DNA from: a virus
Length of the DNA: 33,195 nt
IMG/VR virus record: IMGVR_UViG_3300021368_001292
Span: 1-33,195 of that record
Direction: 5' to 3' (one strand)
Made by a program: the position numbers and the translations under genes. The notes below the pieces were generated by a model that made no database searches, was not told the origin of the DNA, and saw nothing but the letters and a program-made list of their open reading frames with translations. This document shows, one piece after another, positions 4,503 to 11,387 of this stretch (the stretch's first letter is position 1; every line of letters starts with the position of its first letter).

Positions 4503-4754
4503 TTAAAACCCCGCTGCCACGATTGGTGTGCCTTTGAGGTCATTTGTACCACGCAAACCTTCCCCAACACCCAATGTAACGATTATACCAGCGCCGGCAC
4601 CGACATAAATCGAACCGACATTTCCACTATCAGCAGGATTTCTTACTGTCATTTCTATTGCTGAAGAACCAGTATTAAAAACCCAAACTGCACTATCATC
4701 AACAAACTTAGTTGTTCCACTAGCTAGGTTTTGTGCATTTCCTTTAACTCTCAT
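4503..4754 (-). CDS. Small Gly-rich protein of unknown function between gp68-like and gp21
   Basis: The 83-aa product (MRVKGNAQNLASGTTKF...) is rich in Gly, Val and Ala, with alternating hydrophobic residues such as GSIYVGAGAGIIVTLGVGEG. This suggests a small beta-rich fold. There is no signal peptide. The start is placed at 4754 because AGGAAAAG lies just upstream; a longer reading frame continues upstream into the gp68-like gene without family support. It sits inside the prohead gene block and its stop nearly touches the gp21 start, so a role in the head (core or small shell protein) is a positional inference only. I do not recognise the family. Confidence 0.75.
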   Translation of the reverse strand: MRVKGNAQNLASGTTKFVDDSAVWVFNTGSSAIEMTVRNPADSGNVGSIYVGAGAGIIVTLGVGEGLRGTNDLKGTPIVAAGF

Positions 4755-7281: not shown

Positions 7282-9315
7282 TTAACCTCCTACCTCACTA
7301 AACTCAACGCCAGTTCTTACGGCGATGAAGTTAAGTGTAATAAAGTTGATAGAACGTGCAGGCTTGATGAAGATGTCACCAACAAATTCGTTTCTGTCGA
7401 TTACTTCACCTGTGTTGTTAGATTCATCACAGACAACTGAGAAGTCTGTAATACCTCTACGACCTTGCACATCTCTTAGGAAAGGTTCAACCAAGTTCTT
7501 GAACTGTGCTCTTGTGAACTCATCGTTGAATTCAAACAGTTGGAACTTAGCGGCAGTCGCAATTGCCTTTTCAAGAACAAGGAACAGTCTACGAACATTG
7601 ATTCTGTCAAATGCAGAAGGTCTTGAAAGTGCTGTCTTGTCACCGAAAAGAAGTGTACCCTCGCCTGGCTCAGAAATAACAGGGTTAATTCTAGCAGGAT
7701 AGAGAATATCTCTTTGTGACTTATTTGGGTTGTAGGCAAGTTTTACTGAACCACGAATCTGTCCTCTGTTGTAACCAGCAGGTGAGAACCATGCGTCTGC
7801 AACAAGGTCAGTGTTCGCACAAAGTCCAGCGACATCACCGTTCAAAGGAACGTATCTATAGACATCGTTGTACTTGTCGTACATATACTTGTAACCACTA
7901 TCAAAGACTGCATAAGACGAACTTGCTAGTTGGTCAAAGAAATCTTTGATGTTGTTTGTTTGTGTGATAGATGATGGGATACCCACAACATCTGTTCTTG
8001 TTGGTGAAATGAAACCTACGCAATCTTTTCTCGCCTCACAGAGGTCGATGATGTTAGTTGCGTGTGTTACACCGTCTGCACCAGAAGCACCGATTTCAGT
8101 CGAACCAGCCATAACTAGGTTTACGTCAACAGTCGCTGTATCTGCAAACAAAGTATATGCAGTGTCCAGTTCACCTACTGTTGGAGTAGATGCTGAACCA
8201 GAACTACCACCAGTAAGTAGACTGTTGATAATACCTGCTTTACCTGTACCAGATGCGAATGTAGAACTTGAACCAGAAATTGCCTCTGCGGCTGTCTCAC
8301 CGGCATCACTAAGTGATGCATCATGGTCTGCCCATCTTACATATTCTGATTTTGTGTTGACTACGCTTGGGTAGAATGCAGTACCACCTTGTGGTGTCTT
8401 AGCATCTTCTGCCTGTGAAAGGAATGCGAATACCTCAATAACTGCACTTGTTCTACTGCCTGCAAGGTCGCCATCGTAACCAGTGATGTCACCGTTTGTG
8501 TCGAAAACAACAACATGGATTTCATCATTAGTGATGTTCTTACTTGCACCCCAAACAGATGTGCCAGGAGCCGCATCTACTTGGTCGTAGTACTTCCAAC
8601 GTCTGCGAACATCCGTTGCATCTACAAGAGCAGATTTAAGTCCGCCACCGTTAGGATTGTCTAGTTGTCTGATTGTTAGTGTATCATTAGCGATATTAGT
8701 AATTTCATACTGTGAACCGTCTGCTTCTTGGAAGTACACAATGTCACCGACATTGAACAATGCACCACCGTCACCAGCAGAACCACCACCATTATCAATA
8801 GTAACGGTAGTGTCACCAGCGGCAGGTGTTCCCTCAACAACACCCAATGTTCCAGTTGCACCAGTGAATGTTTGTTCATATGCATTTGCGTTTGCACAGA
8901 TAGAAACACCTAGTGCGTTACCTTGAGAGCCAGGGAATCTTGCAATCCACTCGCCCTGTGAAGGACTACCTACACCAGCGTTGTAAATGTTATCGTCATA
9001 GTCAGTATCATTTTTGACTAGGGCGGGCGTACCAACAGCCGCATTGAGCATACCAGCTTTTTCTGCTCGTACTACTCTAAGTGCGTTGCCGTACTGTAGA
9101 AAATTGGCGGCGGTAAACCATGACTCAAAGTTATTATTGTCAGGCTTACCAAAGACTTGTAACAATGTAGTTTCGTTGTTGATTGCAGTAACCTCACCAA
9201 CAGGCCCGATATTAAACTGGCCTGCAATGGCACCGATTGACGTTGCAACAGCAGGAACTACATTGGTCAGATCAATCTCTTTGACGAGTACGCCAGGGGA
9301 TACTTGAAATGCCAT
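7282..9315 (-). CDS. gp18: Contractile tail sheath protein gp18
   Basis: The 677-aa product is close to T4 gp18 (659 aa). The N-terminus has the sheath signature PGVLVKEIDLTNVVPAVATSIGAIAG. The C-terminal third has the conserved core: 'LAYNPNKSQRDILYPARINP', 'GTLLFGDKTALSRPSAFDRINVRRLFLVLEKAI', 'FEFNDEFTRAQFKNLVEPFLRDVQGRRGI' and a terminal strand ending FIAVRTGVEF. The middle, about residues 120-430, is a variable Gly/Ala/Thr-rich exposed region, as in other sheath proteins. Sheath subunits surround the gp19 tube and contract at infection. It has its own late promoter and AGGAG Shine-Dalgarno sequence and heads the block that continues through gp21. Confidence 0.97.
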   Translation of the reverse strand: MAFQVSPGVLVKEIDLTNVVPAVATSIGAIAGQFNIGPVGEVTAINNETTLLQVFGKPDNNNFESWFTAANFLQYGNALRVVRAEKAGMLNAAVGTPALVKNDTDYDDNIYNAGVGSPSQGEWIARFPGSQGNALGVSICANANAYEQTFTGATGTLGVVEGTPAAGDTTVTIDNGGGSAGDGGALFNVGDIVYFQEADGSQYEITNIANDTLTIRQLDNPNGGGLKSALVDATDVRRRWKYYDQVDAAPGTSVWGASKNITNDEIHVVVFDTNGDITGYDGDLAGSRTSAVIEVFAFLSQAEDAKTPQGGTAFYPSVVNTKSEYVRWADHDASLSDAGETAAEAISGSSSTFASGTGKAGIINSLLTGGSSGSASTPTVGELDTAYTLFADTATVDVNLVMAGSTEIGASGADGVTHATNIIDLCEARKDCVGFISPTRTDVVGIPSSITQTNNIKDFFDQLASSSYAVFDSGYKYMYDKYNDVYRYVPLNGDVAGLCANTDLVADAWFSPAGYNRGQIRGSVKLAYNPNKSQRDILYPARINPVISEPGEGTLLFGDKTALSRPSAFDRINVRRLFLVLEKAIATAAKFQLFEFNDEFTRAQFKNLVEPFLRDVQGRRGITDFSVVCDESNNTGEVIDRNEFVGDIFIKPARSINFITLNFIAVRTGVEFSEVGG

Positions 9316-9367
9316 CTTTGTTTCTCCTTATGGATTCATTATTATAAAGTTTCCAAACTTACATCAA

Positions 9368-9375
9368 TATTTATA
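9368..9375 (-). promoter_or_regulatory. T4-type late promoter box before gp18
   Basis: The minus strand reads TATAAATA 53 bases upstream of the gp18 ATG, in the divergent gap shared with the plus-strand HNH-like gene. Confidence 0.85.
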
Positions 9376-9416
9376 AAAACACTTACCTTCAGACTGATTT
9401 TTATAGACCCTTTGCA

Positions 9417-9424
9417 CATAAATA
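9417..9424 (+). promoter_or_regulatory. Possible late-type box before the plus-strand gene
   Basis: The plus strand reads CATAAATA, one mismatch from TATAAATA, ending five bases before the ATG at 9430. By T4 spacing transcription would begin at about the start codon, giving a leaderless or nearly leaderless message. No Shine-Dalgarno sequence is visible there. It may be fortuitous. Confidence 0.3.
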
Positions 9425-9429
9425 ATTCT

Positions 9430-9729
9430 ATGTCAGAACACTATGAAAAGTACAAAGAAACCATAAAAAGGGTTTCTCAACGCAATTACAGGGCCCGTAA
9501 GATATGGGTAAACGAATATCTAAGGGATAAAGTCTGTAATTACTGTGGGGAGTCTGAAACAGCGTGTCTCCAATTTTATCCTCACGAGAGGAAAATACGT
9601 TCTCTTACTAAAAGGAAGGGATTGAACGAACAATCTAGAACTGAGGTAAAAGATTACATCAGTAAATCTAAGGTTGTCTGTGCAAATTGTTACCTAAAAC
9701 TAGAGAACGACATCATTGACATTATGTAG
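9430..9729 (+). CDS. Degenerate HNH-family zinc-binding protein
   Basis: This is the only plus-strand gene. The 99-aa product has a basic N-terminal helix (KYKETIKRVSQRNYRARK) followed by two zinc knuckles, C36-x2-C39 (VCNYCGES) and C84-x2-C87 (VVCANCYLKL). That spacing is typical of small phage HNH endonucleases of the type 'CxxCG...CLxFHH...K...VLCxNCHxKxH'. Here the FHH motif is FYPH and the final NCH is NCY, so key catalytic and metal-binding histidines are changed. It may be an inactivated endonuclease or a zinc-binding DNA protein. I chose the ATG at 9430 because the extension upstream overlaps gp18 and its promoter and is not HNH-like. It converges on gp17 with a 14-base gap. Confidence 0.7.
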   Translation: MSEHYEKYKETIKRVSQRNYRARKIWVNEYLRDKVCNYCGESETACLQFYPHERKIRSLTKRKGLNEQSRTEVKDYISKSKVVCANCYLKLENDIIDIM

Positions 9730-9743
9730 GTTTTTGATGTTTT

Positions 9744-11387
9744 CTACCAATCAGATTCGTAGGAACGAACTACTGGCGCCCATCTTGTACCATACTCATC
9801 TACGATAGTCTCACCGTAGGTTGATACTCCATCGTCAATAAATCCGAATGGAGCCATGTCCTGTTCTAGTTGGTGTTGTTGTTCCAAATACATTCTAGCA
9901 CGAATATCATCATCTGTCAACTCTTTGAAGTATGTTTGTTCTACTAACCACGCAAAGAGAACACAACACATTGCCAAGTCATCTGTGTGTCCTTCCTCTG
10001 CTTCAAAGGATTGTCCTTTCAGAATAAATGTAGAGAATTCGTTGATAAGGTCATAGTCATTAATAATCAGTTTGTCTGTTTCTATGATTTGTTTGAGGTT
10101 AGAACACCCTAGTTTCTTTACTGCTTTTGTTGTCCGTACACCCAACTGAGCCTTACCACCAGAGAAACCACCACCAACAATCTGTCCTGCTCGTCCACGC
10201 ATGGATGCCATGATTAGGTTCTCATACTCCAAGTCAAACTGTAGTGCAGTCGCAACCTGTTCTCCAATATCATTTACTTCAATCATAGTATATGCCATGT
10301 TATATGCTTTCGCAACATCGTGAATGATGTTAGGAAAGAGTAGAGGTTTGATTTCGTTGTTACGATACTTTGCAACAATTCTGTATGGTACAGTAGACAC
10401 ATCGAAAACAACAAACGCTGAGTAATCGTTCTGCGTACCTCTTGCAACATCAGCGACAATCACATAGGTTGCACCCTCTTTTGGTTTCTCATACATATCC
10501 AAACCAGCATTCGACTGAATAGGGTCATGAAATGCCATTGACTTGATTTTTGAAGATGCGATAAGTGTATTAGAAGAACCTAAGAACTCACATTCAAACT
10601 CTCGCCTGAACTGTTCCTCTGAAGTGTTTGCAATAGTCTCCTGTCTCCATTTATCATCACGGCCAGGCACCTCACTCCAATGAACATCAATAATATTGTA
10701 AGAGTTTCTTTGGTTCTCTGCATCCACCCAAAGTTTGTAGAACAAGTTCATACCATTAGGTGTAGATACAATAATAACCTTTGTAGATTTACCAGATGAG
10801 ATTGTGGGATAAACTGAACTGAAGAAGTCCTCTGCAACATTGGTTGGAACGAATGCAAATTCGTCCAAGAAAATCATGTTATAAGAACCACCACGAACAG
10901 CAGATGATGATGTGGATGACGCAACCACACGAGAACCATTCTCTAAGTCAAGTGAACCTTTGTTCCAAGACATTACTCCCTGCTGTAACCACTTGGGAAG
11001 ATTCTCATACGCAAGTTGGAGTCGTCCAAGAATGTCTCTTGCAGTCGAAGCCTTGTTGGCGAGGATTGCAACATTCATGTTAGGATTGAAGAGGATGTAA
11101 TGTAGTATATAAGATACAAGAGTAGTAGACTTACCACTCTGTCTAGGCATCTTACAGATAGTAAAACGGTTGTTGTGGATTGTTCCCACCATATCCTTTT
11201 GGAATGGGAACATTTTGAAAGGAACTAAACCCTCATCCAAAGATACAATCTTGATATATTCTTGAACGAAGTGCAAGGGATCTTCCATGCACTTCTTATA
11301 TTCAAGAATCTGTTCCTCTGTCCATTCGACAGGAACATTTGCTTTCTTTAGTAGTGGGTTTCCAAGATAATGTTCAAAATTTTGCAT
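9744..11387 (-). CDS. gp17: Terminase large subunit gp17
   Basis: The 547-aa product is the packaging motor ATPase and nuclease (T4 gp17 is 610 aa). The ATPase domain shows Walker A MPRQSGKST (residues 80-88), Walker B MIFLDEF (171-177) with Glu176, and the coupling motif STPNG (208-212). The nuclease domain shows the RNase H-like acidic residues Asp313 in VADVARG, Glu370 in MIEVND and Asp469/Asp470 in GHTDDLAM. All hallmark residues are present, so it should be active. It docks on gp20 and works with gp16. The start is ATG 11387, 14 bases after the stop of the upstream adhesin; its Shine-Dalgarno sequence is weak, unlike its neighbours. Confidence 0.98.
   Translation of the reverse strand: MQNFEHYLGNPLLKKANVPVEWTEEQILEYKKCMEDPLHFVQEYIKIVSLDEGLVPFKMFPFQKDMVGTIHNNRFTICKMPRQSGKSTTLVSYILHYILFNPNMNVAILANKASTARDILGRLQLAYENLPKWLQQGVMSWNKGSLDLENGSRVVASSTSSSAVRGGSYNMIFLDEFAFVPTNVAEDFFSSVYPTISSGKSTKVIIVSTPNGMNLFYKLWVDAENQRNSYNIIDVHWSEVPGRDDKWRQETIANTSEEQFRREFECEFLGSSNTLIASSKIKSMAFHDPIQSNAGLDMYEKPKEGATYVIVADVARGTQNDYSAFVVFDVSTVPYRIVAKYRNNEIKPLLFPNIIHDVAKAYNMAYTMIEVNDIGEQVATALQFDLEYENLIMASMRGRAGQIVGGGFSGGKAQLGVRTTKAVKKLGCSNLKQIIETDKLIINDYDLINEFSTFILKGQSFEAEEGHTDDLAMCCVLFAWLVEQTYFKELTDDDIRARMYLEQQHQLEQDMAPFGFIDDGVSTYGETIVDEYGTRWAPVVRSYESDW

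Follow-up and report, generated by a model that had tools for sequence, protein, structure and literature searches.

A zinc-HNH-like gene without HNH catalytic residues, possibly retained as a late regulator, at the gp17/gp18 junction of Melnitz-type T4-like phages

A small gene on the opposite strand separates the genes for the large terminase (gp17) and the tail sheath (gp18) in a T4-like virus, and the question arose whether it is a mobile homing endonuclease, the remnant of one, or a protein taken over for a function of the phage. The DNA analysed, here called the window, was the virus record IMGVR_UViG_3300021368_001292 at its full length of 33,195 bases, which carries T4-type structural genes. 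Its closest records in the phage collection were those of four Melnitz phages, with 79% identity over 47% of its leading 25 kb. The open reading frame at 9430–9729 (+ strand) starts with ATG and has 99 codons, specifying a basic product with four cysteines. The divergent neighbour is gp18 (7282–9315, − strand), separated from the gene by 114 bp, and gp17 (9744–11387, − strand) converges on the gene at a distance of 14 bp. This confirmed the opposite-strand gene described in the initial annotation, and no other + strand frame of at least 60 aa stood out in the window, those listed overlapping − strand frames at least partly. A longer, TTG-started alternative to the frame exists from 9304. The ATG was conserved in 81/81 copies, the distance between the gene and gp18 was variable, and the late promoter described below suits the ATG. 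The window contained no RNA at Rfam gathering scores and no tRNA by ARAGORN.

Relatives of the window protein were encoded on 235 stretches in IMG/VR. Four Melnitz records carried the gene at 78.8% identity, annotated as 'hypothetical protein', and these were the only matches above 60% identity in the phage collection. Since the 235 IMG/VR stretches and the four Melnitz records all encode it, the frame is more than a chance occurrence. A pattern search of genome contigs gave 54 matches, with no relative among them. Loci were compared for the best 80 of the 235 stretches. The gp17 gene was detected in 77 of these, with identical offset and strand in all 77, and the three other contigs stop within approximately 375 bases of the gene start. 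Likewise, gp18 was detected in 78/80 loci, the remaining two contigs starting 20 and 35 bases ahead of the gene. A wider set comprised 71 distinct proteins, from which three of odd length were left out (one of 101 aa, one 97-aa fragment and the copy in locus L080), leaving 68 distinct 99-aa proteins. The L080 copy (gene at 4609) has an in-frame stop at codon 65, due either to a sequencing error or to local loss.

The protein was identified as a relative of the phage zinc-HNH endonucleases, an ancestry well supported by profile comparisons. It matched PHROG 2255 and PHROG 3106, both HNH endonucleases, at E-values of 6.6e-8 and 8.7e-6, and HNH endonucleases were the only PHROG matches that reached E 0.01. 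Among 23 diverse family members, all matched phrog_2255 and 20 matched PHROG 3106. In hhalign, the family aligned with 19 HNH relatives from viral contigs at 98.1–98.4% probability over 89 columns. The profile search that had been proposed with the original description thus bore out the HNH assignment, with E 6.6e-8 for phrog_2255 and a profile–profile probability of 98%. No match to the Pfam HNH family (PF01844-type) was reported for the window protein, and the Pfam HNH cut-off was reached by four of eight HNH relatives tested. The best Pfam match, Cas_TM1802 (E 0.003, 16.9 bits against a cut-off of 25.1), was attributed to chance, and NCBIfam gave nothing for the window protein up to E 1. 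A first structural model (pLDDT 71.9) had no structural match at E 0.001, and neither did a second one (pLDDT 85) in Foldseek. When 21 chains were re-aligned to the model, two HNH enzymes came out on top, 4h9d (Z 3.3, rmsd 4.1, 60 aligned) and 9qgv (Z 3.2, rmsd 4.4, 78 aligned), but an unrelated chain tied with them at Z 3.1.

The residues named in the initial annotation (Cys36/39, Cys84/87, FYPH and NCY) were all present in the window protein. The first zinc knuckle, C36-x-x-C39, is encoded at 9535–9546, and the second, C84-A-N-C87, together with residue 88 at 9679–9693 (both + strand). Both CxxC knuckles were kept in 68/68 distinct 99-aa proteins, from which zinc binding is predicted. Among 59 distinct gp17-anchored proteins, Cys84 and Cys87 occurred in 59/59, and Cys36 and Cys39 in 58/59 with one gap. 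All 23 diverse members were basic (pI 8.3–9.4).

The catalytic positions had a different fate. In the alignments, L-x-[FL]-[DH]-H of the relatives pairs with L-Q-F-Y-P, and C-x-x-C-H with C-A-N-C-[FY]. The segment F49-Y50-P51-H52 (9574–9585, + strand) marks the site of the catalytic [DH]H pair in HNH relatives, and residue 88, a tyrosine in the window protein, is a histidine in aligned HNH relatives. The 19 relatives from viral contigs had been chosen by a pattern that demanded the motif histidine and H or N at the last histidine, so the invariance of histidine among them is partly an artefact of selection. For nine relatives from named phages, chosen without the histidine pattern, both histidines were present in 9/9. 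Proline occupied the catalytic histidine site, position 51, in all 59 gp17-anchored proteins and in all 68 distinct 99-aa proteins. Position 50 was Y in 37, H in 16 and F in six of the 59 gp17-anchored proteins, position 52 was H in 42, Y in 10, D in four, N in two and F in one, and position 88 was Y in 30, F in 21, E in three, W in two, K in two and R in one, and never His (0/59). The earlier reading of FYPH as an altered FHH therefore held, with one refinement: because Y50-P51 is the counterpart of the catalytic HH/DH pair, H52 is not a retained catalytic histidine. The cysteines and Pro51 were conserved in the family, and positions 50, 52 and 88 varied. Kept cysteines and loss of the HNH catalytic residues are well supported by the alignments and the counts in 59 proteins. 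Since two defining residues were tested and found absent, the protein was not classed among the functional HNH endonucleases. Judging by HNH family chemistry, loss of these motif residues would abolish cleavage, and the protein is presumably unable to cut DNA.

Junctions between gp17 and gp18 were collected through gp17, not through the gene, in order to follow its inheritance. The gene was present in 67 of the 71 complete junctions fetched by the gp17 of the window, and in nine of the 74 fetched by the gp17 of Pelagibacter phage HTVC008M, 65 being without it. The gp17–gp18 intervals of HTVC008M, Mosig, P-HM1 and S-RIM32 contained neither an annotated gene nor a match to the family. In HTVC008M (locus L083, 346–2305), annotated phytanoyl-CoA dioxygenase and tryptophan halogenase genes separate the small terminase subunit from the large one. 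A quickly built gp17 tree, thinned at 97% identity and cleared of five rows whose state was unknown, had 99 rows, 48 carrying the gene and 51 lacking it. Presence of the gene on this tree required two changes, compared with 33 on average when the labels were shuffled. We interpret the two changes as a single gain and a single loss, the latter in L293, L302 and L314; L315, which had been thinned out of the tree, shows an empty junction like these three. Distances of the gene and of gp17 were correlated (rho 0.865 over 1711 non-independent pairs). The distribution was not sporadic (67/71 junctions, two changes, rho 0.865), and a mobile free-standing homing endonuclease was rejected. The gene is inherited vertically with gp17, with no ongoing homing. 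The median dN/dS was 0.093 and the 90th percentile 0.138 (NG86; 436 usable of 900 sampled pairs), with pairs of dS ≥1.5 excluded and a median dS of 0.99 that is near saturation.

A T4-type late promoter octamer, CATAAATA, lies 5 nt before the ATG (9417–9424, + strand). No other NATAAATA occurs on the window's + strand; the − strand has ten. Across 85 distinct upstream contexts (144 collected), NATAAATA started at −13 in 83 and at −15 in two, and its first letter was C or T in 56/56 contexts printed. T4 late promoters start transcription approximately six bases past the octamer. With such a start, an octamer at −13 would place the beginning of the mRNA at or beside the ATG, and the late mRNA of the gene is probably leaderless. 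The same arrangement, in promoter and position, was conserved between proteins down to 47% identity. A second octamer, TATAAATA, faces gp18 and diverges from the gene (9368–9375, − strand). Between the two octamers is a TTTATA element (9400–9405), the − strand reading of which resembles a late promoter, TATAAAAA, facing gp18. The span from the nearest upstream TTTATA to the octamer was 24 nt in 74/85 contexts, 23 nt in 8/85 and different in 3/85, and the distance from the element to the gp18 octamer was a near-constant 31–33 nt. None of the window's ten other octamers had a separate TTTATA within 40 nt upstream. The element may be half of an operator, a second gp18 promoter (read as TATAAA), or both. 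The palindrome AAGTTTCCAAACTT at 9347–9360, directly past the gp18 late octamer and near the start of the gp18 leader, was seen in many of the relatives printed.

An upstream dyad, with striking arms in individual loci, was considered as an operator and rejected for want of covariation. Its inner pairs matched in 119/330 cases across 55 distinct 24-mers, against a mean of 133 for permuted right halves, which equalled or exceeded the observed pair count in 4888/5000 runs. The inner pairs were more numerous than after plain shuffling of the inner letters (mean 83), an excess that we put down to conserved composition. Among the gene-less junctions printed, with gaps of 44–110 bp, 13/14 had NATAAATA before gp18, and P-HM1 has TCTAAATA. 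The clade of L293, L302, L314 and L315 also kept the late octamer before gp18. Since the gene is absent there, any regulation by its product would be dispensable in that clade.

In one contig (IMGVR_UViG_3300021379_000435, locus L366; 2585–3385, − strand), the HNH-like domain at the gp17/gp18 junction stands behind a GIY-YIG-like domain. The frame encodes 266 aa, with the HNH-like domain C-terminal and an N-terminal part that reads as GIY-YIG. The N-terminal part matched PF22945 at E 1.9e-4 and 21.9 bits, below the cut-off of 27, and the whole sequence matched the GIY-YIG structure 9u75 at 1.5e-4, each stretch alone being weak. The best PHROG match was 5356, of unknown function, and phrog_2255 matched the HNH-like part at 1.5e-4. 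A Shine-Dalgarno-like AGGGAAG upstream of the likely start, ATGGCAAGA, replaces the leaderless arrangement. Seven loci were found with the L366 protein: L413 is the same contig, four aligned to the HNH-like part alone, L418, cut off by the end of its contig, covered no more than the initial 35 residues of the query, and L419 only the last part. The fusion is complete in one contig only. Since a dead HNH domain is joined there to a nuclease-like domain, the former would supply the binding, which suggests that the HNH-like domain is a DNA-binding module. In L316 and L317, an extra frame of approximately 355 aa, which from its letters resembles a Rieske-type oxygenase, lies in gp17 orientation between gp17 and the HNH-like gene (gaps of 1634 and 1493 bp). 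In L286, L290, L304, L308, L311, L318, L383 and L394, the stretch between gp17 and the gene is approximately 100–140 bases longer than in the window and contains no open reading frame of note.

We propose that the protein derives from a homing endonuclease, is unable to cleave, binds zinc and DNA, and has been retained chiefly as a regulator at the gp17/gp18 junction, a reading to which we assign a probability of about 0.45. In an ancestor of the marine T4-like phages of Melnitz type, a single entry would have brought a free-standing zinc-HNH homing-type endonuclease into the gp17–gp18 interval, on the opposite strand. Cleavage would have been lost as the general-base histidine became Pro51 and the last metal-ligand histidine was replaced by a mostly aromatic residue, while the basic Cys4-zinc DNA-binding scaffold was presumably retained under strong purifying selection. 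Expression would be late, driven by the gene's own TATAAATA-type promoter, and the mRNA is probably leaderless. The protein would bind DNA without cutting it, chiefly regulating the divergent late promoters in the stretch that separates its gene from gp18. The sequences themselves show the gene, its homology, the missing catalytic residues, the promoter geometry, selection and vertical inheritance, and from them we infer zinc binding, DNA binding, absence of cleavage, the leaderless start, the binding site and the regulatory role. As a working model we take I-TevI of T4, whose DNA-binding part represses the enzyme's late promoter. The claim that the protein had been 'taken over for regulation or packaging' thus stood in its first half, since dN/dS of ~0.09, vertical inheritance and the fixed promoter position fit a protein taken over better than an ageing one. 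An extended version is more tentative and, in our judgement, doubtful: a resident, cleavage-dead late regulator, made by a lineage of marine T4-like phages from an invading HNH homing endonuclease and served by a leaderless mRNA and a back-to-back late promoter at the boundary of terminase and tail sheath, whose domain would still be recombined with GIY-YIG catalytic domains into new site-specific endonucleases.

The dead HNH protein could instead be an accessory of packaging or assembly, with phage DNA or the gp17 terminase as its binding partner while late packaging proceeds. HNH proteins are encoded beside terminases in other tailed phages, and here the gene has a late promoter upstream, lies 14 bp from the end of gp17 in 77/77 loci with gp17 detected, and co-diverges with gp17. 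However, co-divergence is expected of any neighbour inherited vertically, HNH proteins that take part in packaging elsewhere among phages are known as active nucleases, and both the HTVC008M junction and the 65/74 complete junctions fetched with its gp17 manage without the gene; we consider this role unlikely. A role apart from transcription, in the virion, in RNA binding or as another kind of small zinc protein, would also suit a late promoter amid structural genes, and a Cys4 zinc knuckle with basic charge fits RNA or protein binding as well. Such a role is rather improbable given that homology at E 0.01 in PHROG points to HNH endonucleases only and that the domain joined to it in L366 is GIY-YIG-like.

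To a third alternative we give only a small chance. The protein might cover the ancestral homing site and so block related active homing endonucleases of competing phages, for which a retained basic scaffold without catalytic residues would serve, and HNH relatives do occur in other phages (147 records up to E 10; among the 60 listed, most matched weakly). Yet the unusually long or short junctions opened held no competing HNH gene, and late timing would be slow for the defence of a site. A nuclease with a rearranged catalytic set is very unlikely: E41, R57, R70, N86 and K90 were invariant in the 23 diverse members and position 53 was E in 30, D in 22 and N in seven of 59, but no His or Asp was invariant in the 23, and positions 50, 52 and 88 swap non-equivalent residues. 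Finally, the 'ageing homing endonuclease' of the initial annotation, a decaying gene without function, is hardly credible, since the lost catalytic residues, the stop in L080 and the one clade without the gene are outweighed by purifying selection (dN/dS ~0.09), vertical inheritance and a promoter and position retained among proteins down to 47% identity.

The preferred reading, a cleavage-dead regulator of homing-endonuclease descent, would be a case of homing-endonuclease domestication within phage genomes, a process that in our judgement is often suspected but rarely documented with a clear ancestry, a single point of entry and evidence of selection all at once. Here single gain, fixed site, loss of catalytic residues and purifying selection are all readable from public contigs. 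Since the Melnitz phages are isolates with a host, Methylophilales H5P1, the function of the gene is open to experiment. The late octamer fixed at −13 would also make these T4-like phages a clear-cut natural example of leaderless translation of a late gene. The main text of the Melnitz paper, as far as available, does not use the term 'HNH' (PMC9004378), and the available part of PMC8987985 does not mention a dead HNH protein at the junction. Titles and abstract openings in the open PMC literature yielded no description of this gene. In the same open literature nothing was found on leaderless late promoters, and no precedent was found in SMAD MH1 domains.

Among known systems, the zinc-HNH endonucleases of the PHROG 2255/3106 kind (FelixO1 NP_944871, SUSP1, PaoP5, T7-like 536_P3 and others) are closest. 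They share with the window protein the domain size, a basic N-terminal helix, the CxxC...CxxC arrangement and the L-x-[FL] and C-[AS]-N-C frame. They differ in having [DH]H and CxNCH in 9/9 aligned, whereas the window family has YP and NC[FY]. Their genes adjoin tRNA genes in 7/9 records opened, whereas the window family occupies one structural-gene junction with its own late promoter. The segD gene of T4, according to the portion of the source available, is a free-standing GIY-YIG gene antisense between 23 and 24, the one antisense homing gene of T4, with no promoter identified (PMC2988022). It resembles the window gene as a homing-type gene antisense among structural genes, and differs in its GIY-YIG class and the conserved late octamer of the window gene. 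The same portion describes the DNA-binding part of I-TevI as a repressor of its own late promoter in T4 (PMC2988022), and a homing-endonuclease DNA-binding part at a late promoter is what we propose for the window protein. I-TevI is an intron-encoded, active GIY-YIG enzyme, whereas the operator of the window protein is hypothetical. A further parallel, WhiA, is not an HNH protein. In the available part of its description, it is a bacterial transcriptional regulator related to eukaryotic homing endonucleases (PMC3781837), and thus an example of the kinship between a regulator and homing endonucleases that we propose for the window protein.
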